Assembly: GCF_030012215.1 (NCBI RefSeq)
Contig: NZ_JASCXX010000037.1
Span: 1-37,926 of the forward strand
Source of the DNA: Anaerobaca lacustris
GTDB lineage: Bacteria; Planctomycetota; Phycisphaerae; Sedimentisphaerales; Anaerobacaceae
Length of the DNA stretch: 37,926 bases
Direction: 5' to 3'
Both the position numbers and the translations under genes were made by a program. Numbering within the stretch: the first letter of the stretch is position 1; every line of letters begins with the position of its first letter. Positions 2,342 through 14,025 of the stretch are shown here, one piece after another. The notes under the pieces were generated by a model. It did no database searches. It was given only the letters and a program-made list of their open reading frames with translations, and was not told the DNA's origin.

Positions 2342-4105
2342 TTAGAAGAGGCCGCGGACCTTGCCGGTCTCGACGTCGACGTCGATGCGGCGGAAGGCGG
2401 GGTTGGAGCCGGTGCCGGGCATCAGGCGGATCGAGCCGGCCACGGGGACGACGAAACCCGCCCCCTTATAGACGAGGATGTCGTTGATCGGCAGCACCCA
2501 GTCGGTGGGTCGGCCCTTCAGTTCGGGATCGTGCGACAGGCTGAGTTGCGTCTTGGCCATGCAGGTGCCCAGCCGCGTCCCATAGGACTCCGCTTCCAGC
2601 CGCTTGGCCTTGGCCAGTGCCTCGTCGGTGTACGTCACGCCCTTGGCCCCGTAGACCTCTTTGGCGATCAGCTCGATCCGCTGCCGCAGGGGCATCGTCA
2701 GGTCGTAGAGAAACTGGAAATGGCTCGGCTCGTTGCAGGTCTCGATGACCGCCTCCGCCAGTTCGAGGGCTCCCTGGCCGCCCTTGAGCCAGTGCTCCGA
2801 GCAGACGGCCCGCGCTCCGGCGGCTTCGGCGATTCGGCGGACCAGGTCGATCTCGGCCTGCGCGTCGGTGTGGAAGCTGTTGATGCAGACGATGGGCCGC
2901 ACGCCGCTCTTCCTGACGATGTCGATGTGGGCGAGGAGGTTCTCGCAGCCGGCCTCGACCAGGCCGAGGTTCTCGGTGACGTACTCGTCGGCCAGAGGCA
3001 CGCCGGCTTTGACGGCGGGACCGCCGCCGTGCATTTTCAACGCACGGATCGTGGCGACGAGCACCACGGCGTCGGGCGAAAGTCCCGACATGCGGCACTT
3101 GAGGTTCCAGAACTTCTCGAAGCCGATATCGGCGCCGAAGCCGCTCTCGGTGATATGATACTCGCCAAGTCTGGTCCCGAGACGGTCGGCGATGATGGAG
3201 CTTTGGCCGATGGCGATATTGGCGAACGGTCCGGCGTGCACGAAGACGGGCTGGCCTTCCAGCGTCTGGACAAGATTCGGGTTGATCGCATCGACGAGCC
3301 AGGCGGTCATGGCGCCGTCGACGTCGAGATCGCCGGTGGTGACCTCATTGCCTTGCCTGTCATACGCCACGACCATGTGAGCGATCCGCTCGCGCAGGTC
3401 CCGCAGATCCGTCGCCACGGACAGAATCGCCATCACCTCGCTGGCCACCGACATCTGGAAGCCGGAGTCCATCTCGAAACCGTCCATCTTGCCGCCGCGA
3501 CCGATGCGAATGCTCCGCAGGCTCTGGGCGCAGAAATCCATCGCCCAGCCGATCTGAACGCGGTCGGGGTCGATGTCGAGGCGCCGCAGATGGCTCTGGG
3601 CCAGGCGGGCGTCGTCGTAGTTTCGCTCGTGCTGCATCCGGGCGGTCATGGCGACCATCGCCAGATTGTGGGCGTTGGTCACGCAGTCGATATCGCCCGT
3701 GAAGCGAATCGACAGCGGTGTCAGGGGAATGCACTGGGCCAGCCCCCCGCCGGCGGCCGAACCTTTGATATTGAACGTCGGCCCGCCGCTGGGCTGGCGA
3801 ATCGCCCCGCAAACGCGCTTGCCGAGGACGCCAAGCCCCTGAATCAGGCCGAGCGTCGTGGTGGTCTTACCCTCTCCCAGAGGGGTGGGCGTGATGGCGG
3901 TCACATCGATGTACTTGGCGCGGGGCGCGCCGTCCAGGCGTTCCAGGGCCTTGGCGTAGTGTACCTTGGCGAGCTTGGCGCCGTAGGGGACCAACTCGTC
4001 GTCGCGCAGGCCCAACTCGGCCGCGAGGCGCCCGATCGGCTTCATCTGCTCTTCGGCGGCCTCGGCGATCTGCCAGTCCTGCATTCGTCGCGGGTCGAGT
4101 TCCAT
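2342..4105 (-). CDS. fhs: Formate--tetrahydrofolate ligase
   Basis: ATP-dependent ligation of formate to tetrahydrofolate, the entry step of the methyl branch of C1 metabolism and of the Wood-Ljungdahl pathway. The 587-residue protein carries the P-loop [11 protein letters not shown] near residue 75, the AAGGG segment, FTGDID, and the C-terminal [15 protein letters not shown] stretch. Compared with textbook enzymes it is somewhat long and its substrate loop reads [14 protein letters not shown] rather than the usual REPSLGP...KGGAAGGG form, so it belongs to a divergent branch. Start choice is open. ATG 4105 gives MELDPRR but its GGGAG is only two bases upstream; an in-frame TTG at 4114 adds three residues and has GGGG six bases upstream. 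It is first in a two-gene unit with folD, behind the promoter near 4166. Confidence 0.93.
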
Positions 4106-4165
4106 AGCTCCCAATCACAACCCCGTTGTTCATACGTCCGCCCCCTTGCGTGGGCCCGGCCCTGC

Positions 4166-5531: not shown

Positions 5532-6473
5532 CTATCGGTTGGACTCGCTCTTCTGTGTCGAAACCCATTGTCGGTACAACGCGTCGATTTCCTCGGTCTG
5601 TGCCCGCCGGTCCCACAGGACCACGGCGTACCGCAGGTCCAGGCGATTGCCTTCGACCAGTTTTAGCGGTTCCTCGTGGAGCCCGAGGGTTGCGGAAAGA
5701 TAGGCGAAGGGCTCGGTCATCGTGAACCAGGTGGTGGGATGTCGCGGGTTGCTCGGATGACCGAACATCGCGACCGTCACATCGTCGCCGTCGACGCCGG
5801 CGGTGTAGGCGCACCAGTTGGATCGGACGAGACGCTCTGCGCCACGGAAGACCGTGCCGGGGTTGTCGGCGGCGTTGCGGAACTGCCCCTTGGCATCCAT
5901 CGCCCGAATGAACCGCATGCCCAATCCGAAATAGTGCGCCCCCGTCAACGTCACGGAGCCTTTGCCTGTCGGCACGGAAAGGCGGCTCTCCCAGGTCAGC
6001 ATGGTCACCCGTGGCACAACAGGTCGTGCGACAGTAATCGCGCGCTGCTCGGCCAGCAGCCGCTCGCCGGATGGATCGAGCCAGTCCAGTCGCTCCATGA
6101 AGCCGACATGGGGCGGCTCGTCCGCAAGCTCGGCGAAACTGACGTGCTTCTGTCGGCCGGCCGCCGGGGTCTCTTCCCAAAAGTTCACGGCGTCGGCCCC
6201 TACGGCGAACATCAGCGCGTGGTGGTGCAGATGGTCGTGCGGCGCATCGAGCAGGACGTTCAGGCCGTTCGACGTGAACAACCTCTTGACGTACGGCTTG
6301 AACGGGACATCGCCGTAGCGATACTCCGCGACCTCAACATCGCCCGCCTTCACCAATACCCTGTTGGCGTCCACGATGGCCCGCATCGGCTGACCGGCCG
6401 GCGTGCTATCCGCTACTGCCGACAGAGTCAGCGAGCCAAGAACAATGGCGTACACAATGCTTCGCCTGCCCAT
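5532..6473 (-). CDS. Secreted PmoA-like (DUF6807) family protein
   Basis: A 313-residue exported protein. A signal peptide covers about residues 1-22 (GRRSIVYAIVLGSLTLSAVA). The mature part shows the family pattern: RYGDVPFKPYVKRLFTSNG, the histidine-rich HDHLHHHALMFAVG segment near residue 85 and a FWEE motif, followed by a beta-rich region and a conserved YAVVLWD near the end. The family is labelled 'methane oxygenase PmoA' in databases but is not a methane monooxygenase; it resembles carbohydrate-active beta-sandwich proteins and its activity is not established here. Start 6473 is chosen because GGAGG sits seven bases upstream and the protein then begins directly with its signal peptide; a longer in-frame start at 6500 would overlap the upstream gene. 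Its neighbours suggest a role in glycoside processing. Confidence 0.82.
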   Translation of the reverse strand: MGRRSIVYAIVLGSLTLSAVADSTPAGQPMRAIVDANRVLVKAGDVEVAEYRYGDVPFKPYVKRLFTSNGLNVLLDAPHDHLHHHALMFAVGADAVNFWEETPAAGRQKHVSFAELADEPPHVGFMERLDWLDPSGERLLAEQRAITVARPVVPRVTMLTWESRLSVPTGKGSVTLTGAHYFGLGMRFIRAMDAKGQFRNAADNPGTVFRGAERLVRSNWCAYTAGVDGDDVTVAMFGHPSNPRHPTTWFTMTEPFAYLSATLGLHEEPLKLVEGNRLDLRYAVVLWDRRAQTEEIDALYRQWVSTQKSESNR

Positions 6474-6492
6474 CCCTCGTCCTCCAGAGCTA

Positions 6493-7317
6493 TCAGACAA
6501 ACTGTTTGAGATGTTTGATGCTGCGCTCGGCCTGAGCGACCGTGCCGCACTCGACGCTCAGGACGATGTCGCGCGGCGCCTTCTTGCACAGATCGATGAC
6601 CTTCTTCCAGTCGTTGACGCCGTCGCCACAGGCGCAGCCGGCGGGCGTGCCGGTGACTTTGCCTCGTTCGTCTTTGGATTGCTGGATGGAGATGTCCTTG
6701 GCGTGCAGGTGCACGAGGCGCTCCTTGACGCGATCGAGCCAGACGAGCGGGTCGTGGCCGCAAAGGTAGCTGTTGCCCGTGTCAAAGTTGATCCCGATAG
6801 CGGGCGAATCGACCAATCCATAGATGCGATCCAGTCCTTCCGGCGTCTGGCTGTACTGCTGGTGGGGCTCCAGGCCGATCAGGATGCCGCGATTCTCGGC
6901 AAACAGGGCCGCCTCGGCCAAGACATAGCGCATGAGAACGAAATCCTCGCTCTCGGTCGTCCACTTCGGCTTGGGCCCTTCGTCGGTATTCACCACGGGC
7001 GCGCCGCACTCGGCGGCGAAGCGAATCGCCTGTTTGAGGTAGTTGCCGCTGATGTCCGGCTTGCACAACGGCGTGTGCGCCGAGAGACCCGACATCTTCA
7101 CACCGGCCTTCTCGCAGATCTTGCGGATGCGGATCGGGTCCTCCGACATCGAGATCGTCGCAAAGTACCCCGCCTCGCTGATCAGCTCGCGCCCGAGATG
7201 CACCCAGGGCTCGACGTACTCATACCCCAATTCAGCGGCCTTGGCGACGCCCCACTCGAACGATTTGTCCTCGTGACGCACGAATTCCATGTTGACCCCG
7301 ATCGATACCTTGCCCAT
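6493..7317 (-). CDS. Sugar phosphate isomerase/epimerase (xylose isomerase-like TIM barrel)
   Basis: A 274-residue cytoplasmic TIM-barrel protein of the AP endonuclease family 2/xylose isomerase-like superfamily. Visible landmarks are the N-terminal strand KVSIGVNMEFVR, EPWVHLGRE, the metal-ligand glutamates in LIGLEPHQQY (about 150) and VLSVECGT near the end, GINFDTGNSYLCGHDP (about 180), and the LVHLHAKDI strand with its histidine. These fit keto-sugar isomerases and epimerases, but the substrate is unknown. An internal Cys/Gly-rich stretch (TPAGCACGDGVND) replaces the usual Gly-rich VPxGxG loop. The start at 7317 has a textbook AAGGAGG nine bases upstream. The next gene begins 19 bases after its stop, so it is probably co-transcribed with the DUF6807 protein and oxidoreductase. 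Confidence 0.88.
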   Translation of the reverse strand: MGKVSIGVNMEFVRHEDKSFEWGVAKAAELGYEYVEPWVHLGRELISEAGYFATISMSEDPIRIRKICEKAGVKMSGLSAHTPLCKPDISGNYLKQAIRFAAECGAPVVNTDEGPKPKWTTESEDFVLMRYVLAEAALFAENRGILIGLEPHQQYSQTPEGLDRIYGLVDSPAIGINFDTGNSYLCGHDPLVWLDRVKERLVHLHAKDISIQQSKDERGKVTGTPAGCACGDGVNDWKKVIDLCKKAPRDIVLSVECGTVAQAERSIKHLKQFV

Positions 7318-7384: not shown

Positions 7385-8710
7385 TCACGGCGTCACTACG
7401 AACCATTCGATCAGACCCGGCAGTTGCTCGAGACTGAGAAACGTCACCGATAGGACCGCGATGACCCACATGGCGGGCCTGACCTGTCGGGCCCGCCCGG
7501 AAACCAGATTGATCACGACGAACGAGACGAAACCGAACGCCAGGCCCGTGCTGATGCTGTAGCTCAGCGCGATCATCACGATGAGGATGAACGACGGGAA
7601 CGCCTCCGCCAGGTCGCCGAAGTCGATCCGCTTGACCTCCCGCATCATGAACAGGCCGACCATGATCAGCGCCGGCGCCGTGGCGTACTTGGGCACCATC
7701 GCAACGACCGGGATGAACAGCAGCGCCACGAGAAAGAGGACCCCGGTGACGACCGCCGTCAGGCCGGAGCGGCCGCCCTGCTCGATGCCCGAGGCCGATT
7801 CGGCGAACGACGTCGTCGTCGAGGTCCCCAGCAGAGCGCCGATCATCGTCGCAACCGCGTCGACGCCCAGCAGCCGGTCCAGGCCGCGAATTTTGCCGCG
7901 TTCGTCGAGCATATCCGCCTTGTGACAGCAGGCGACCAGCGTCCCGATGCTGTCGAACATATCGACGAACATCAGCGTGAAGATGCTGCCCATAAAGCCC
8001 CACTTCAAAGCGCCGAGGATGTTCAGCTTGAAGGCGATGGGACGGATGTTCACGTCGAGAGAGATCACCCGTTCGGGCAAAGCCACCTGGCCGGTCGCCG
8101 CCGCCAGCAGGGTCGAGACGGCGATGCCGATCAACAGCGAGCCGCGCACGTTCCGGCTCTCCAGAAAAACCATCGTCAGCAGGCCCGCCAGGCCGATCAG
8201 CACCTTGGCTGTGATCGGGCCGGCCGAGACCATTGTGAACGGGTCGGCCACGACGATGCCCAGATCGGTCAGGCCGATAAACGTGATGAATAGCCCGATC
8301 CCGACGCCGATGGCCGCGATCAGCGAGCCGGGGATCGCCTCGACGATCCGCTGCCGCAGCCCGACCAGCGTCAGCACCAAAAAGAACACGCCCGACAGAA
8401 ACACCACCCCCAGCGCCGTCTGCCAGTCCATCTTGCCCGAGACCACCAGCACCGTGAAGATCGAGTTGAGCCCCAGGCCCGGCGCCATCGCGATCGGGGC
8501 CTTGCCGAACAAGCCCGTCGCAATCGTCGCCAATGCCGAGATGATGCACGTCACCGCGATCAGCGCCGTCTTGTCCATCCCGGTCGGTTCGAGGATGTTG
8601 GGGTGCGTGAAGATGATGTAGGCCATCGTCAGGAAGGTGGTGGTCCCCGCAACCACCTCGACCCGCACGTTCGTCCGCCGCCTGTCGAGCTCGAAGTAAT
8701 CCCTTGGCAT
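7385..8710 (-). CDS. NCS2-family (AzgA-type) purine/nucleobase permease
   Basis: A 441-residue inner-membrane proton symporter with about 12-14 hydrophobic segments. It carries AzgA-type signatures: GTTTFLTMAYIIFTHPNIL at the N-terminus, APGLGLNSIF near residue 80, and GTSTTTSFAESASGIEQGG near residue 285 with GRSGLTAVVTG after it. Characterised relatives carry adenine, guanine or hypoxanthine. Start 8710 gives the conserved MPRDYFELD-type N-terminus with GAGGGG upstream; a longer frame would begin inside the 8741-8766 repeat. It opens a cluster whose other members look like sugar enzymes, an odd partner for a purine carrier. No promoter was seen between it and tRNA-Leu 62 bases upstream, so read-through from the tRNA promoter is possible. 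Confidence 0.9.
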   Translation of the reverse strand: MPRDYFELDRRRTNVRVEVVAGTTTFLTMAYIIFTHPNILEPTGMDKTALIAVTCIISALATIATGLFGKAPIAMAPGLGLNSIFTVLVVSGKMDWQTALGVVFLSGVFFLVLTLVGLRQRIVEAIPGSLIAAIGVGIGLFITFIGLTDLGIVVADPFTMVSAGPITAKVLIGLAGLLTMVFLESRNVRGSLLIGIAVSTLLAAATGQVALPERVISLDVNIRPIAFKLNILGALKWGFMGSIFTLMFVDMFDSIGTLVACCHKADMLDERGKIRGLDRLLGVDAVATMIGALLGTSTTTSFAESASGIEQGGRSGLTAVVTGVLFLVALLFIPVVAMVPKYATAPALIMVGLFMMREVKRIDFGDLAEAFPSFILIVMIALSYSISTGLAFGFVSFVVINLVSGRARQVRPAMWVIAVLSVTFLSLEQLPGLIEWFVVTP

Positions 8711-8740
8711 TTCGCCCCTCGCATCGCGCGCCGTCTGCCC

Positions 8741-8766
8741 GTAGGGGCGAATCATCATTCGCCCCC
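8741..8766 (+). repeat. Family-1 hairpin repeat (GTAGGGGCGAAT core)
   Basis: A 9-bp stem GGGGCGAAT (8744-8752) / ATTCGCCCC (8757-8765) with loop CATC is preceded by CCCGTA. It is the same element as 11080-11103 and 12482-12505 but in the opposite orientation, and it lies between tRNA-Leu and the NCS2 permease gene. Confidence 0.75.
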
Positions 8767-8772
8767 ATCAAA

Positions 8773-8855
8773 TGCGAGCGAGAGGAGTCGAACCTCCACG
8801 TCCGAAGGACACCAGGACCTAAACCTGGCGCGTCTGCCAATTCCGCCACGCTCGC
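8773..8855 (-). tRNA. tRNA-Leu (anticodon UAG)
   Basis: The acceptor stem pairs GCGAGCG (8855-8849) with CGCTCGC (8780-8774), discriminator A at 8773. The anticodon stem is CCAGG/CCTGG and loop TTTAGGT gives UAG at 8821-8819, reading CUN leucine codons. A long variable arm (TGTCCTTCGGACG) and the D-arm GGCGGAATTGGCAGACG are typical of bacterial tRNA-Leu. The T arm is GGTTCGACTCC. CCA is not encoded. Confidence 0.96.
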
Positions 8856-8868
8856 AACGGACGGCCCC

Positions 8869-8926: not shown

Positions 8927-8951
8927 GGGGCGACGCATGCGTCGCCCCTAC
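8927..8951 (-). repeat. Family-1 hairpin repeat, CATGCG-centre variant
   Basis: Positions 8927-8948 form a perfect 22-bp palindrome with arms GGGGCGACGCA / TGCGTCGCCCC, followed by TAC on the plus strand. On the minus strand it begins CCGTAGGGGCGA, the same left edge as the copies at 11080 and 12482, and that edge contains the TAG stop codon of the membrane-protein gene ending at 8948. It separates that gene from the tRNA-Leu promoter. Confidence 0.7.
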
Positions 8952-9730
8952 GGCGTTCTGCGCCGGTTGCGCGAGACGGCACTGCACAGCAGATGCGACA
9001 GGACGACCAGCAGAGGCAAAGTCGCGATTCCCAAAAACGTCAGCAACGGCGCCGGCACGCGTCCGACCGCTCGAAAGATGAGGCCGCCCACGACGACGTA
9101 GGCGTTGCCCCAGGCCTCGGCGCGAAAGAAGGCCACGGGCGCCTCGGGATTGCCGATGAACGGTCGCAGGACCCAGCCCATCTGGACCCCCACGAAGGCA
9201 TACAGGACAAACCACGCCCAGAGCAGATGCCGATGCCTCGGCTCGCGGGCGATCAGCGGGCGATAGTAACGCCGGACGACGATCTGGGCGGCCAGGGTGG
9301 CGACGCCGAACATGACCATGTTGAACAGCAGGACCAGGCCGTAATCGCGACACGAGATGTACCAGAACGCCGTGATCGGCGCCAGGGCGGCCAGCACGAC
9401 GGTGACGCAGGACTGCGTCGCGACGAGCGCCCGCAGGACCTGCCCGAAATCGTCGCGCAGTCCCGCCAGCGTGTTGACTACGAAGAAGCTGGGCAGGCAC
9501 AGCACGAACGTCGCCAGCAACAGGATGGGCACCTTCACGCCGGAGTAGAGCAACTGGTGCAGCCGCCCCGCCTTCAGCCCGCTGAACGTCCCCATCACCG
9601 CGCCGTAGAACAATCCGCAGACAAGCATGAGAGCCAGCAGCCAGCGCAGGCGTCCCATCAAGGGCGCATCGACCGCGAAAACGCCCCTGCCGCGCAGAAA
9701 ATCGTCAGCCGCCCGAAAGAACGCGCGCAT
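8948..9730 (-). CDS. Polytopic membrane protein, paralogue B of a tandem pair
   Basis: A 260-residue protein with about six hydrophobic segments, at roughly 27-50, 60-85, 95-120, 128-150, 170-195 and 225-250. The fifth carries [14 protein letters not shown], almost identical to [14 protein letters not shown] in the neighbouring gene; [10 protein letters not shown] and LAPITAFW are also shared, so the two genes are clear paralogues. I do not recognise a characterised family and assign no function. Start 9730 is set by the TGATG overlap: the A of this ATG is the last base of the upstream stop, so translation is probably coupled and the products may act together. The stop codon lies in the 8927-8951 repeat, which supplies the final Pro-stop. 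Confidence 0.8.
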
Positions 9731-10521
9731 CACGCACCGAATAGAGCGACGATCGTACGGAACAGATCGATGAAGATGTTGGCTTCGCGGTCGCGAAACC
9801 ACTCGAACGCGAGGTTCGGCGCCCCGACAAACGGCCGCAGCACCCAGCCCATCTGGGCGCCCACCAGACCGTAGATCACCAGCCAGAGACGAAACGTGGT
9901 GCCCAGGATGTCGCCCGAGGGCGACAGCGCAACAGGCATGACGGTCACAGTGGGCCCAGGACCGTCGGTGGGCTCGGCGGCGGGCGCGGAGTTCCCCGTT
10001 GCTTTGGCCGGTCCGGCCTGCGCCGCATCGAGTCGCGACAGCATGGTCAACAGGACTTTGAGCCCGATGACGCCCGAGACTGCGAAGAAAAGGAAGTTCA
10101 GCAGTTTCATGAACGGATAGCTCGACGTGCTGAGCGTGAAGAACGCGGTGATCGGTCCGAGCGAGGCCAGAACGGCCAGATTGGCCGAGACCGGGGCGAG
10201 GATCAGCCGCAGCGTGTCTTTCGGGCCCAGTCGAATGCCCAGCAGCGCGCTGAAGACGTACAGCGACGGGAATGTGATGACGAGCGTCAGGATGAACAGG
10301 ATCGGCACCTTGACGGCCGAGGCGAACATCTGGGCGAAACACGGGGGCGTTCGCGTCAGTACCGCGTAGAGCCCCATGCACAGACCGTAGACGATCCCCA
10401 GCACGATCGACACAGCCACGAGCGGCTTGATGCGGATGTGCCCCGTGCCGCCTGCCAGAAGCTGCGGATCGCCCTTGTGCCCGCGCAGAACCTCATCCAA
10501 CTCCTTCAACCACCGAATCAT
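9730..10521 (-). CDS. Polytopic membrane protein, paralogue A of a tandem pair
   Basis: A 263-residue protein with a short charged N-terminus (KELDEVLRGHKGD) and five or six hydrophobic segments: about 32-55, 68-95, 105-130, 138-160 and 205-230. A Pro/Ala/Gly-rich, probably extramembrane linker lies at about 168-200. The conserved [14 protein letters not shown] motif follows the fifth segment and SAVKVPILFI and LGPITAFF match paralogue B; B lacks the long linker. AGGGGA nine bases before the ATG supports the start at 10521. No catalytic residues are evident and no function is assigned. Its stop overlaps the start of paralogue B by one base. Confidence 0.8.
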   Translation of the reverse strand: MIRWLKELDEVLRGHKGDPQLLAGGTGHIRIKPLVAVSIVLGIVYGLCMGLYAVLTRTPPCFAQMFASAVKVPILFILTLVITFPSLYVFSALLGIRLGPKDTLRLILAPVSANLAVLASLGPITAFFTLSTSSYPFMKLLNFLFFAVSGVIGLKVLLTMLSRLDAAQAGPAKATGNSAPAAEPTDGPGPTVTVMPVALSPSGDILGTTFRLWLVIYGLVGAQMGWVLRPFVGAPNLAFEWFRDREANIFIDLFRTIVALFGA

Positions 10522-10754: not shown

Positions 10755-11039
10755 TCAGAAGAGGGCTTCTTCGTCGGAGCCGGGCGCTTCGTCGGCGGGT
10801 TCGGGGGTTGCGGCGGACGGCTCCTCGTCGGTCTTGCTGATCTTCTCGATTCGCTTCTCGGCCTTCTGGAGGATCTGGCGACAGTGCTGGATCAGGGCCA
10901 TCCCCTGCTCGTACTGTTCGAGGCTGTCCTGCAGCGGGATCTGACCCTGCTCGATCTTGTCCACGATGGTTCGGAGCTGCTTGATCGCGTCCTCAAAGTT
11001 CAGTTTGCTGATCTCGTCTTCGGTCTTCTTCTGGGCCAT
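10755..11039 (-). CDS. xseB: Exodeoxyribonuclease VII small subunit
   Basis: Small subunit of exonuclease VII, which degrades single-stranded DNA from both ends to oligonucleotides; several XseB chains bind one XseA. The 94-residue protein has the conserved core LNFEDAIKQLRTIVDKIEQG, then LQDSLEQYEQGMALIQHCRQIL, a two-helix coiled coil. An acidic, Pro/Ala-rich C-terminal tail of about 25 residues follows, longer than in many homologues. Start 11039 gives MAQKKTEDE with AGGA nine bases upstream; upstream in-frame codons would begin in the 11080 repeat. It follows xseA by 60 bases, an interval mostly filled by that repeat, and its stop abuts the family-2 repeat. Confidence 0.93.
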   Translation of the reverse strand: MAQKKTEDEISKLNFEDAIKQLRTIVDKIEQGQIPLQDSLEQYEQGMALIQHCRQILQKAEKRIEKISKTDEEPSAATPEPADEAPGSDEEALF

Positions 11040-11079
11040 GGTCTTGTTTCCTGTCGCGTCTGGATATCGTCGTCCATGA

Positions 11080-11103
11080 GGGCGAATCATGATTCGCCCC
11101 TAC
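11080..11103 (-). repeat. Family-1 hairpin repeat between xseA and xseB
   Basis: GGGCGAATCATGATTCGCCC (11080-11099) is a perfect 20-bp palindrome, followed on the plus strand by CTAC. On the minus strand the edge reads CCGTAGGGGCGA and contains the TAG that ends xseA. With no T-run it is unlikely to terminate transcription; it could affect mRNA stability or the XseA:XseB ratio. Confidence 0.8.
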
Positions 11104-12458
11104 GGCATATTATACACCTTGCTTTCGATGACGGTCTTGCCGGCCAGTTCGGTGAGCATCGCATCGCCGACCCGGATGTCGTCGAGCGTGCGGACGACCT
11201 TGCCGGTCGTCTTGTTCGTCGTGATCGTGTAGCCGCGCGCCAGCACGCTGCGCGGATCGAGCGCCGCCAGACGGCCTTCGCGTGCGGCCAGGTCCATCTT
11301 CCGGGCGTTCACGACGGCCGTGATCGCCGCCCGCGCCCGGCTCGTCAGCTCGTTGAGCCGAACGGTCATCGCGCCGAGCAGCCGGTGCGGCTCGATCCGG
11401 GCGATATGCTCGTGGCAGTCCTGCAGCATCGCCCGCCGCTGCGCCAGAAGGGACTGGACCGATGCGGATAAGTCCGACGCCAGTTCATCGACGTGCTGCT
11501 CCCGCATCCGCACGGCCAGCAGCGGATTGCGAAACGCCGAACTGGCGAGAATCGTTTGCAGATACTCGCCGCCCAGCTCGACGCGGGATCGGACACTGCG
11601 CATCAGGCGGCTGCCCTGATGGTCCAGGTCGCTCAGCACGTCACGCATGTCGGGGACCGCGACCACGCCGGCCTTCGTCGGCGTCGAGGCCCGCCGGTCC
11701 GCCACGAGGTCGGCGATCGTCGTATCCACCTCGTGCCCGACGGCGCTGATGATCGGGATCTTCGACGCGAAGATCGCCCGCGCGAGCACCTCCTCGTTGA
11801 AGGCCCAGAGGTCCTCCAGCGAGCCGCCGCCGCGCCCGACGATCAGCAGATCGAGCTTGAGCCTGGCGTTGCGCCGGTTGACGTCGGCAATCGCGGCGGC
11901 GATCTGCCGGGCCGCGCCCTCGCCCTGGACCGGCACGGGATAGAGAGCCAGCCGCGTGCAGGGCCAGCGGTTGTGCACGCTGTCGGCGATGTCGTGGACC
12001 GCGGCGCCGGACTCGCTCGTCAGGATGCCGATCCGCTGCGGGTACGTCGGGATCGGTATCTTGTGCGCGTCGTCGAAGAGGCCCTCGGCCCGCAGCTTGC
12101 GAACCAACTGCTCGAACGCCAGTTGCAGCGCCCCGACGCCCTCCGGCGCCATCTCCTCGACGACCAGCGAATAGCGGCCCTGCGGGACGTAGACGCTGAC
12201 GAAGCCGGTCGCGATCACGGCCAGTCCGTTCTCCGGGCGGAACCGCACGCGGGCGAAGTTCGGTTTCCACATCGCACAGGGCAGCACCGAGCCCTCATCC
12301 TTCAGCGAGAAATAGCAGTGGCCGCTTCCATGCTGCTTCCAGCCGGTGATCTCGCCCTTGACCATCACCCGGGCGGGGAGGCTCGTCTCCAGAACCTCCT
12401 TGACCAGGGCGTTGACCTGGCTGACCGTGTAGATCGTCGGCGTTGTCTTCGTTTGCAT
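11100..12458 (-). CDS. xseA: Exodeoxyribonuclease VII large subunit
   Basis: Catalytic subunit of exonuclease VII, a cytoplasmic single-strand DNA nuclease used in repair. The 452-residue protein has an N-terminal OB-fold (about 8-110: VSQVNALVKEVLE, VKGEITGWKQHGSGHCYFSLKD), then the nuclease domain with TSESGAAVHDI, LLIVGRGGGSLEDLWAFNEE near residue 207 and VGHEVDTTIADLVADRRASTP near 242, all hallmark segments. A long coiled-coil region follows (about 270-400), then a C-terminal strand domain with LDPRSVLARGYTI. AAGGAGG is well placed before the ATG at 12458. The last codons are ATG-CCG-TAG, and CCGTAG is the edge of the 11080 repeat, so the C-terminal Pro and stop come from the repeat. Confidence 0.96.
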   Translation of the reverse strand: MQTKTTPTIYTVSQVNALVKEVLETSLPARVMVKGEITGWKQHGSGHCYFSLKDEGSVLPCAMWKPNFARVRFRPENGLAVIATGFVSVYVPQGRYSLVVEEMAPEGVGALQLAFEQLVRKLRAEGLFDDAHKIPIPTYPQRIGILTSESGAAVHDIADSVHNRWPCTRLALYPVPVQGEGAARQIAAAIADVNRRNARLKLDLLIVGRGGGSLEDLWAFNEEVLARAIFASKIPIISAVGHEVDTTIADLVADRRASTPTKAGVVAVPDMRDVLSDLDHQGSRLMRSVRSRVELGGEYLQTILASSAFRNPLLAVRMREQHVDELASDLSASVQSLLAQRRAMLQDCHEHIARIEPHRLLGAMTVRLNELTSRARAAITAVVNARKMDLAAREGRLAALDPRSVLARGYTITTNKTTGKVVRTLDDIRVGDAMLTELAGKTVIESKVYNMP

Positions 12459-12481: not shown

Positions 12482-12505
12482 GGGCGAATGATGATTCGCC
12501 CCTAC
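12482..12505 (-). repeat. Family-1 hairpin repeat upstream of xseA
   Basis: An 8-bp stem GGGCGAAT/ATTCGCCC with loop GATG (12482-12501) is followed by CTAC on the plus strand. On the minus strand it begins CCGTAGGGGCGA and supplies the TAG stop of the GH-like gene. It ends 23 bases before the xseA start codon, so a folded hairpin in the mRNA would lie just upstream of the xseA ribosome binding site. Confidence 0.8.
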
Positions 12506-13878
12506 GGGCGCACCAGGACGACCCAATAGTCCTTCGAGGGACATTCCAGCGTCAGAGCGCCGGGCTCTGCGACGCGCTGCGGCTTCGACCATTCGGATTT
12601 GAGCACGTTGAGCCACTGCACGGTCGCCGGACCCTTCAGCGCGCGGGCGTCGAGCGTCACCTTGCCGCCGTCGGGAAAGTAGACCGCGTACTCGGTGCCC
12701 GGATTCGCGAAGCAATAGGCCTCGTTCGCTTCGCGCTCGCCGAGCAGATCGTTGTGCGGCTCGCACGCAAAGACCCGCATCCGATCGGTGATCATTCGCA
12801 TGCTGCGGATATTGGCCTGGGCCTTGTCGCCCAGCCCCAGCCCGGAGTCGGGCCGGTGGAACCGCGCCGAGGCCAGCCCGCCGAAGATGTTGCGCCAGAA
12901 CCGCTCCATCGCGTCGCGGTCGTTGCCGTAGCGACCGGTGTCGGCGCCGTAGATCTTGGTGTTGTTCAGCGGTCGCGGCCGGTCGGCGATCCGCGCCCGC
13001 TGCGTCTGCGCGTTGTCCCAGTGGGCCTGGCCCTTCTGATGGTTGTTCTGCGAGATGTCGATGAACGAGTACAGCTCCGGATGGTCGAACGTCGCGCGGT
13101 GCGAGGCGTGCGAGAGGTCCCAGGCATCCCACATCTCGGTGGTGTGGACCTTCACGCCGGCGGCCTTGGCCCTGGCCTGGATGAAGCGGGCCCAGTAGGC
13201 GCCCCAGGCCGGCTGGCCGGAGGTCTCGTTGTCCATGCAGTACAGCACGTTGCCGCGCTTCAGCGAATGGATGAGCATCTTGTCCACGAAGCGCTGCTGG
13301 TACGGCAGCACGACGGCGTTGTTTCGCTGCTCCGGCGTGGTGAAGAAGAACGGCTGCTCGTTGCTGCCCGGATGGTTCGGATACCGCTCGGCCAGGCCCG
13401 AGGCCTCGAACGTGTAGTTGACGTTGTTCTTCGGATTGTAGGGGCTCACGTCCCAATGCTCGCGCGAGTAGTCGAAGCGGTCCCAGACCTCGATCTGGAC
13501 GATGATGTCACGCTCTTGCGTCAGCGCCATCAGGCTCTCGAACCGCCGCCAGTACTCGTCGTTCCAGCGGTCCAGGTCGTACTTGCCGTCGGGCCGCTTC
13601 GCGAACGCCTGGACCTCGAAGCCCTTGTCGATCCGCGCGCTCATCGTGTTGCGGATGTAGTTGCCGCCGACGCTCTGGAGCAGGTCGAGATGCTCTTTCA
13701 GATCGGGAATCTGAAACAGGTTGTCGTCCTTGCTGCCCCCGATCAGCAGGACCGGCTCGCCCTTGTACTGCCAATACCGCGGATTCGCCGCATAGACGTC
13801 GATCGCCCCTTGGGCAAAAGCTCCGCCGCAGACGCAAAGCAAACCGACAACCCACACGCACGCAAATCGAGATATCAT
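12502..13878 (-). CDS. Secreted glycoside hydrolase-like protein (DUF4038/apiosidase-type barrel suspected)
   Basis: A 458-residue exported protein. Residues 1-23 form a signal peptide (SRFACVWVVGLLCVCGGAFAQ). The mature part opens with NPRYWQYKGEPVLLIGGSKDD and DLLQSVGGNYIRNTMS, the pattern by which DUF4038-type TIM-barrel glycosidases begin. VQIEVWDRFDYS (about 150), YCMDNETSG (about 210) and HTTEMWDAWD (about 245) place acidic residues at barrel-strand ends as expected for acid/base and nucleophile. The last 90 residues look like a beta-sandwich. Family membership is inferred from pattern only; substrate unknown. Start 13878 has AGGAGG eight bases upstream, and an upstream in-frame extension is low-complexity and lacks a signal. 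It ends Arg-Pro-TAG inside the 12482 repeat and lies 43 bases before xseA. Confidence 0.75.
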   Translation of the reverse strand: MISRFACVWVVGLLCVCGGAFAQGAIDVYAANPRYWQYKGEPVLLIGGSKDDNLFQIPDLKEHLDLLQSVGGNYIRNTMSARIDKGFEVQAFAKRPDGKYDLDRWNDEYWRRFESLMALTQERDIIVQIEVWDRFDYSREHWDVSPYNPKNNVNYTFEASGLAERYPNHPGSNEQPFFFTTPEQRNNAVVLPYQQRFVDKMLIHSLKRGNVLYCMDNETSGQPAWGAYWARFIQARAKAAGVKVHTTEMWDAWDLSHASHRATFDHPELYSFIDISQNNHQKGQAHWDNAQTQRARIADRPRPLNNTKIYGADTGRYGNDRDAMERFWRNIFGGLASARFHRPDSGLGLGDKAQANIRSMRMITDRMRVFACEPHNDLLGEREANEAYCFANPGTEYAVYFPDGGKVTLDARALKGPATVQWLNVLKSEWSKPQRVAEPGALTLECPSKDYWVVLVRP

Positions 13879-14025
13879 GGCGTTTCCTCCTGACCAGAAT
13901 TCCATTGACGACGGCTCAATAACCGTATCCCGCCGATTATACGCCCCCCCGCCGCCCCCATCAATCCCCCTTCTCCGCCCCGAACCCGCCAGCCGTGCGC
14001 CCCTCCACACCCAAGCCCCATCCAC

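Follow-up and report, generated by a model that had tools for sequence, protein, structure and literature searches.

Why does the genome of Anaerobaca lacustris encode two different but related polytopic membrane proteins in overlapping genes, and do the two proteins work as one complex? The genes lie in a stretch of 37,926 nucleotides, here called the window; we refer to the first gene as A and to the second as B (Table 1). The first-pass annotation of this DNA had claimed that two related membrane genes overlap by one base and share three motifs, VKVPIL, PITAF, and QMGWVLRPF(V/I)G. Translation and the TGATG at the junction bore out the overlap, from which we infer translational coupling of A and B, and all three motifs were present in both proteins. 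The start of B at 9730 fits the alignment with 17 relatives, whereas a mechanical ORF caller overextended this gene to 477 aa (8948-10381). By BLASTP, A and B are identical at 77 of 243 positions (32% identity, E 1e-25), and a profile-profile comparison of their subfamilies gave E 3.1e-43 across 221 columns. Such similarity is far above chance, and A and B are true paralogues. Searching the organism's own genome (5.7 Mb, 117 contigs, 98% complete) with A and B returned no match beyond the pair itself.

Table 1. Positions in the window of the A-B pair, its motifs, and its surroundings (TM, transmembrane helix).
Feature	Position	Strand	Details
Gene A (first gene)	9730-10521	-	263 aa, about five TM helices, long variable loop TM4-TM5 (translation, alignment, model, hydropathy scan)
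Gene B (second gene)	8948-9730	-	260 aa, ATG at 9730; five TM plus a sixth, C-terminal hydrophobic segment
TGATG overlap	9728-9732	-	stop TGA of A 9732-9730, ATG of B 9730-9728, one base common to both
VKVPIL in A	10297-10314	-	A residues 70-75; K71 and P73 invariant in the 30-row alignment A3
PITAF in A	10141-10155	-	A residues 123-127; TM3 end
QMGWVLRPF(V/I)G in A	9823-9855	-	A residues 223-233; TM5 end
VKVPIL in B	9521-9538	-	B residues 65-70
PITAF in B	9365-9379	-	B residues 118-122
QMGWVLRPF(V/I)G in B	9152-9184	-	B residues 183-193
Extra hydrophobic C-terminal segment of B (TM6)	8990-9046	-	in 4/18 aligned B rows: window, L025, L027, L028
Exonuclease VII small subunit	10755-11090		upstream of the pair
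Exonuclease VII large subunit	11100-12458		upstream of the pair
tRNA-Leu	8772-8856		downstream of the pair
Xanthine/uracil-type permease	7385-8758		downstream of the pair
DUF6807 protein	5532-6500		near the pair; recurs only in the window's closest relatives (ORF clustering)
Protein with weak Collagen_bind_2 match	12502-14025		near the pair; recurs only in the window's closest relatives

The closest relatives of A (81-94% identity) come from records titled Phycisphaerales, Phycisphaerae, or Planctomycetota MAGs. When genome contigs were searched with A, 18 loci came up, with B directly downstream in 17; these include one locus (L032) whose A gene is truncated by the contig start and carries an in-frame stop, and the 18th (L042) holds just the first 27 residues of A. 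Profile searches covering two phyla found the family in both. In the window's phylum, 59 of 294 sampled genomes have it, 46 of them with at least two matches and 13 with one; in the second phylum, that of a Verrucomicrobiia-labelled MAG (G347), 9 of 145 genomes have it, as adjacent pairs in all nine. A draw around G349 recovered the family in 25 of 99 genomes, on contigs and at coordinates that repeat those of the 294-genome scan. Within the class, 28 of 248 genomes matched (23 have two matches side by side, 4 have one, and 1 has two fragments on different contigs). Nine of 61 near relatives, own genome included, did so as well, with seven pairs, one single gene (G017), and one fragment (G007). 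No match was found in two of the five other genomes of the genus, which are 75-80% complete. The distribution of the family is patchy. The estimated distance from the stop of A to the start of B lies between -30 and +30 bases in 42 of 59 pairs.

A tree of 137 rows (63 pairs and 11 singles) was built from 48 of the 59 genomes positive in the phylum scan minus G302, together with G017, eight second-phylum genomes, the window, and the genome-contig loci; two near-copies (L025 and L026) and two loci with a split gene (L032 and L103) were left out. It contains four paired subfamilies, and the window pair belongs to subfamily I. This subfamily comprises 38 pairs, whose first genes group together (support 84) and whose second genes form one starred clade (100), with the order A then B in 38/38, an arrangement retained over many planctomycete families; a further locus, L206, added after the tree was made, looks like one more such pair. 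Subfamilies II, III, and IV hold 11, 9 (order swapped in two), and 5 pairs, so that the tree has 25 pairs and 11 single-gene loci outside subfamily I, with further singles off the tree. The strict form of the QxxWxLRPF motif occurs in 35/38 A and 26/38 B proteins of subfamily I; among the 25 other pairs, a QxxWxLRP-like motif is confined to the first gene in 16 and to the second in 3; no pair has it in both genes, and 6 lack it altogether. When the tree was left free (97 rows), A and B of subfamily I came out as sisters (89). Since AU tests reject neither A plus intact partners (p 0.611) nor B plus intact partners (p 0.613), we make no claim of convergent pairing. One pair from a Verrucomicrobiia-labelled MAG (L034, 3986-5431) nests in subfamily I, which otherwise consists mostly of planctomycete records; its placement reflects either gene transfer or a binning error.

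The surroundings of the pair vary. In 27 subfamily I loci, 96 flanking ORFs (at most two per side, at least 100 aa) matched 75 Pfam families, none of which occurred in more than three ORFs; in 33 other loci, 109 flanking ORFs matched 66 Pfam families, none in more than two. Gene calling was length-greedy, so that some of these ORFs are spurious and some neighbors may be missed, and clusters 1-4 of the neighbor clustering were taken, by their coordinates, as other-frame shadows of the pair. As no flanking gene recurs, the A-B pair seems to be a complete unit.

What, then, do the two proteins look like? Structure prediction from 33-row alignments gave helical bundles with moderate confidence (pLDDT 75 and pTM 0.72 for A; pLDDT 82.8 and pTM 0.77 for B), and five TM helices per protein fit these models. 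A hydropathy scan placed four segments above the cut in A and six in B, the fifth TM of A resting on the model and on the alignment with B; the sixth segment of B would return its C-terminus to the inside. In the models, the QMGWVLRPF(V/I)G motif lies at the end of the fifth predicted helix, in keeping with the earlier remark that it closes a TM segment. Lysine and arginine are carried by the N-terminus and by loops 2-3 and 4-5 in both proteins, with almost none in loop 3-4; contrary to this pattern, loop 1-2, which is assigned to the outside, also has about two. The charges favor an inside N-terminus in both A and B, and with it a parallel arrangement, and an antiparallel (dual-topology) dimer was dropped, given that the two proteins show the same pattern. 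The positions invariant in the 30-row alignment A3 are, in A numbering, G46, G50, K71, P73, P85, Y135, W213, W226, L228, R229, P230, F231, R243, and N248. The predicted outer side holds 23 of the 30 most conserved positions (alignment A4) against 115 of 263 residues overall (p 1e-4; p 0.0055 without the variable loop 4-5), with outer and inner boundaries that were set by hand after the alignment had been viewed. In TM2 it is the inner half that is more conserved (0.746 vs 0.687). The 4-5 loop is net negative in 22/38 A proteins and net positive in 38/38 B proteins. A charge zipper between these cytosolic loops was considered and set aside, being weak in subfamily I (A negative in 22/38) and absent in the 25 other pairs.

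By the gene evidence, A and B stay together, and one heteromeric membrane complex is the simplest mechanism for this. Our best explanation in full, to which we give about an even chance (roughly 0.5), is a single heteromeric complex of the inner membrane whose two subunits are A and B. The two proteins would be made together and inserted in parallel, each with its N-terminus inside and with five TM helices, and would then join into one A-B unit. The long variable loop of A and both N-termini would remain in the cytosol. The conserved residues, located at the end of TM1, in the KxP at the start of TM2, in the turn between TM3 and TM4, and in the QxxWxLRPF-G-P stretch after TM5, followed by an R and an N, point mostly outward and might form a putative ligand- or lipid-binding face. 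The paralogy, the coupling, and the lack of a name for motif and family in the earlier interpretation have all stood, while the A-B heteromer that it proposed is, judged from the arrangement of the genes, probable.

Whether such a complex belongs to a known family was addressed with several libraries. The first-pass annotation had allowed that the family might already be characterised; no match above the curated cut-off was obtained for A or B in Pfam or NCBIfam, nothing under E 0.2 in PHROGs and nothing under E 1 in PADLOC, and the best hits among PDB sequences had E 0.92 and 2.5. Pfam scans of 30 and 22 relatives gave scattered one-member matches only, the best being DUF2919 (E 0.0084) and Mce4_CUP1 (E 0.023). 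DUF2070 (PF09843) was rejected, with A scoring 7.1 bits vs a cut-off of 30. By structure, and among the matches listed, Foldseek against the PDB returned nothing convincing (best E 0.51 for A and 1.3 for B), VIA-align gave best Z values of 5.8 (A) and 6.0 (B), within the range that the tool calls common, and Foldseek against viral models gave no convincing fold match. Among plasmids, neither A nor three single-type relatives had a tblastn match, no relative was confirmed in viral contigs, and four motif strings of the family had no match in the literature searched. The pair apparently represents an undescribed family, though its kind, membrane subunits that are paired paralogues, is a familiar one.

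Paired paralogues are common among small transporters, and the pair could be a small heteromeric channel, exporter, or lipid carrier, in which the outer-face K, R, Q, and W residues line a site or pathway. The conserved polar residues in and beside the TM helices, mostly on the outside, are what such a protein might show, and channel, transporter, or receptor roles are proposed for a predicted 20-TM complex in a YIPF review (PMC6682643). However, neither A nor B matches a transporter family, no solved fold rises above Foldseek noise, and no recurrent substrate gene adjoins the pair, so that we hold this account to be possible but doubtful. Returning to the heteromeric complex as we propose it, its likeliest role, put forward tentatively and by analogy, may be that of a membrane scaffold or adaptor without enzymatic activity, acting much as the YIPF alpha/beta heteromers do, because there is no obvious catalytic motif and there are no partner genes. 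As a molecular activity, a heteromeric channel or lipid carrier is about as likely as a scaffold.

Do A and B need each other? The first-pass annotation had raised the possibility that each paralogue normally occurs alone. For subfamily I this did not hold, as its intact genes were paired wherever seen (38/38 on the tree) and no intact A or B was seen standing alone; the lone pieces found are remnants in four loci, and single genes do occur in other subfamilies. Three of the remnants (L014 in G007, 1426-1659; L200 in G747, ~3998-4123; L204 in G212, ~4301-4095) consist of just the C-terminal end of a B-type gene, with no further match to A or B in the stretch searched. They look like the remains of decayed pairs or like chimeric contigs, and they show that uneven decay of the pair is possible. 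In the fourth (L042, 4001-4081 onward), which holds a start of A, this gene ends after ~27 residues and the downstream sequence resembles, by eye, the hydrophobic C-terminal end of B; a tblastn search with B gave no match there, and either a deletion or a collapse in assembly seems to have removed the middle of this pair.

Eight of the 13 genomes with one match in the 294-genome scan correspond to single-gene loci on the tree. The remaining five were examined together with three from the class scan: in this set, G113 and G700 join the known single genes L095 and L111, G111 has one gene and G720 one very diverged gene, the matches in G184 and G220 are partial and not classed to a subfamily, and G212 and G747 have the B-type ends described above. 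The 11 single genes cluster as one group in the careful-model trees (79, not starred, with 137 rows; 69 with 97 rows) but lie dispersed (7 changes) in a quick FastTree to which 20 rows, several of them fragments, were added. Inspection by eye showed a Cys-rich N-terminal stretch in one single-gene relative (L107, 4854-5642), a long TM1-TM2 insert in another (L099, 4865-5926), and long charged, coiled-coil-like C-terminal tails in two more (L095, 4397-5674; L096, 4807-6099). Certain cyanobacterial single-copy proteins of similar size, which carry the NCBI label 'actin-binding WH2 domain-containing protein' and a similar Q-x-x-W-x-L-R-P-F ending, are perhaps a single-gene branch of the A/B family; the label, which was not found in the literature searched, is uninformative on function.

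Tandem duplicates often stay close by chance and co-regulation, and A and B could function separately, as homomers between which the functions are split or graded, the overlap serving just to co-regulate them. The 11 single-gene loci agree with this and count against a need for a heteromer, as they suggest that the fold is possible without a partner in principle, and B-type pieces without A are found in three loci. On the other side stand the absence of lone intact genes from subfamily I, the fixed order in 38/38 pairs while the flanking genes differ, and the divergence between A and B (32% identity), and we consider two independent homomers unlikely.

For the heteromer, the closest comparison is with the YIPF proteins, which span the membrane five times and of which an alpha subunit joins a beta that is its paralogue (PMC6682643; PMC13398756). 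The YIPF heteromers, such as Yip1p-Yif1p, consist of two paralogues with five predicted TM helices, a cytosolic N-terminus, and a C-terminus on the opposite side (PMC6682643; PMC13398756). A is predicted to have the same topology, with five TM helices and its C-terminus outside, but the B protein of the window has its sixth segment. The two eukaryotic YIPF motifs (near TM1 and in TM3) are present in 0/137 rows of the family, but also in 0/11 bacterial Yip1 rows. The systems differ in the nature of the evidence, alpha-beta pairing having been measured whereas we infer A-B pairing from gene arrangement. We know of no YIPF counterpart of the QxxWxLRPF motif. The archaeal Yip1-like (COG2881) cassettes likewise encode a small polytopic membrane protein with further membrane proteins, but their partners come from other families in three- or four-gene cassettes (PMC5898192), whereas A and B are paralogues of each other and have no further recurrent gene beside them.

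That the family descends from Yip1/YIPF as a very diverged branch, A and B being the bacterial counterparts of alpha and beta, is improbable. In its favor, the predicted plan is the same (five TM helices, N-terminus inside, C-terminus outside, paralogous partners; PMC6682643; PMC13398756), and the best hhalign stretch, a weak one, occupies a common site in both, in the loop before TM3. Against it, the hhalign probability is 0.3-0.4%, below that of a reversed Yip1 control (1.3%; Yip1 profile of 11 rows) and equaled or exceeded by two of 12 shuffles (one at 0.4%, one at 0.9%). Yip1 (PF04893) was not listed for A or B (E up to 10) nor for any of 30 members (E up to 1) and appeared for one of 22 diverse members at E 2.5, and the window's genome has no Yip1 match. 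Kinship with Yip1 is thus not supported.

As a conserved pair without recurrent neighbors or a family model, A and B offer a clean target with a short list of invariant residues. A bolder proposal, which we rate as a long shot, is that planctomycetes and a second phylum may possess a paired five-helix complex that shapes or organizes the inner membrane in the manner of Yip1-Yif1, its outward QxxWxLRPF/KxP site binding a lipid head group or an envelope ligand. If the fold were Yip-like, there would be a paired Yip-type system for bacteria with elaborate inner membranes. The phylum is known for unusual inner membranes, and if A and B do form a heteromer, they would constitute a new paired membrane-protein family within it and would let one ask whether bacterial paired five-pass proteins do the work of YIPF pairs.
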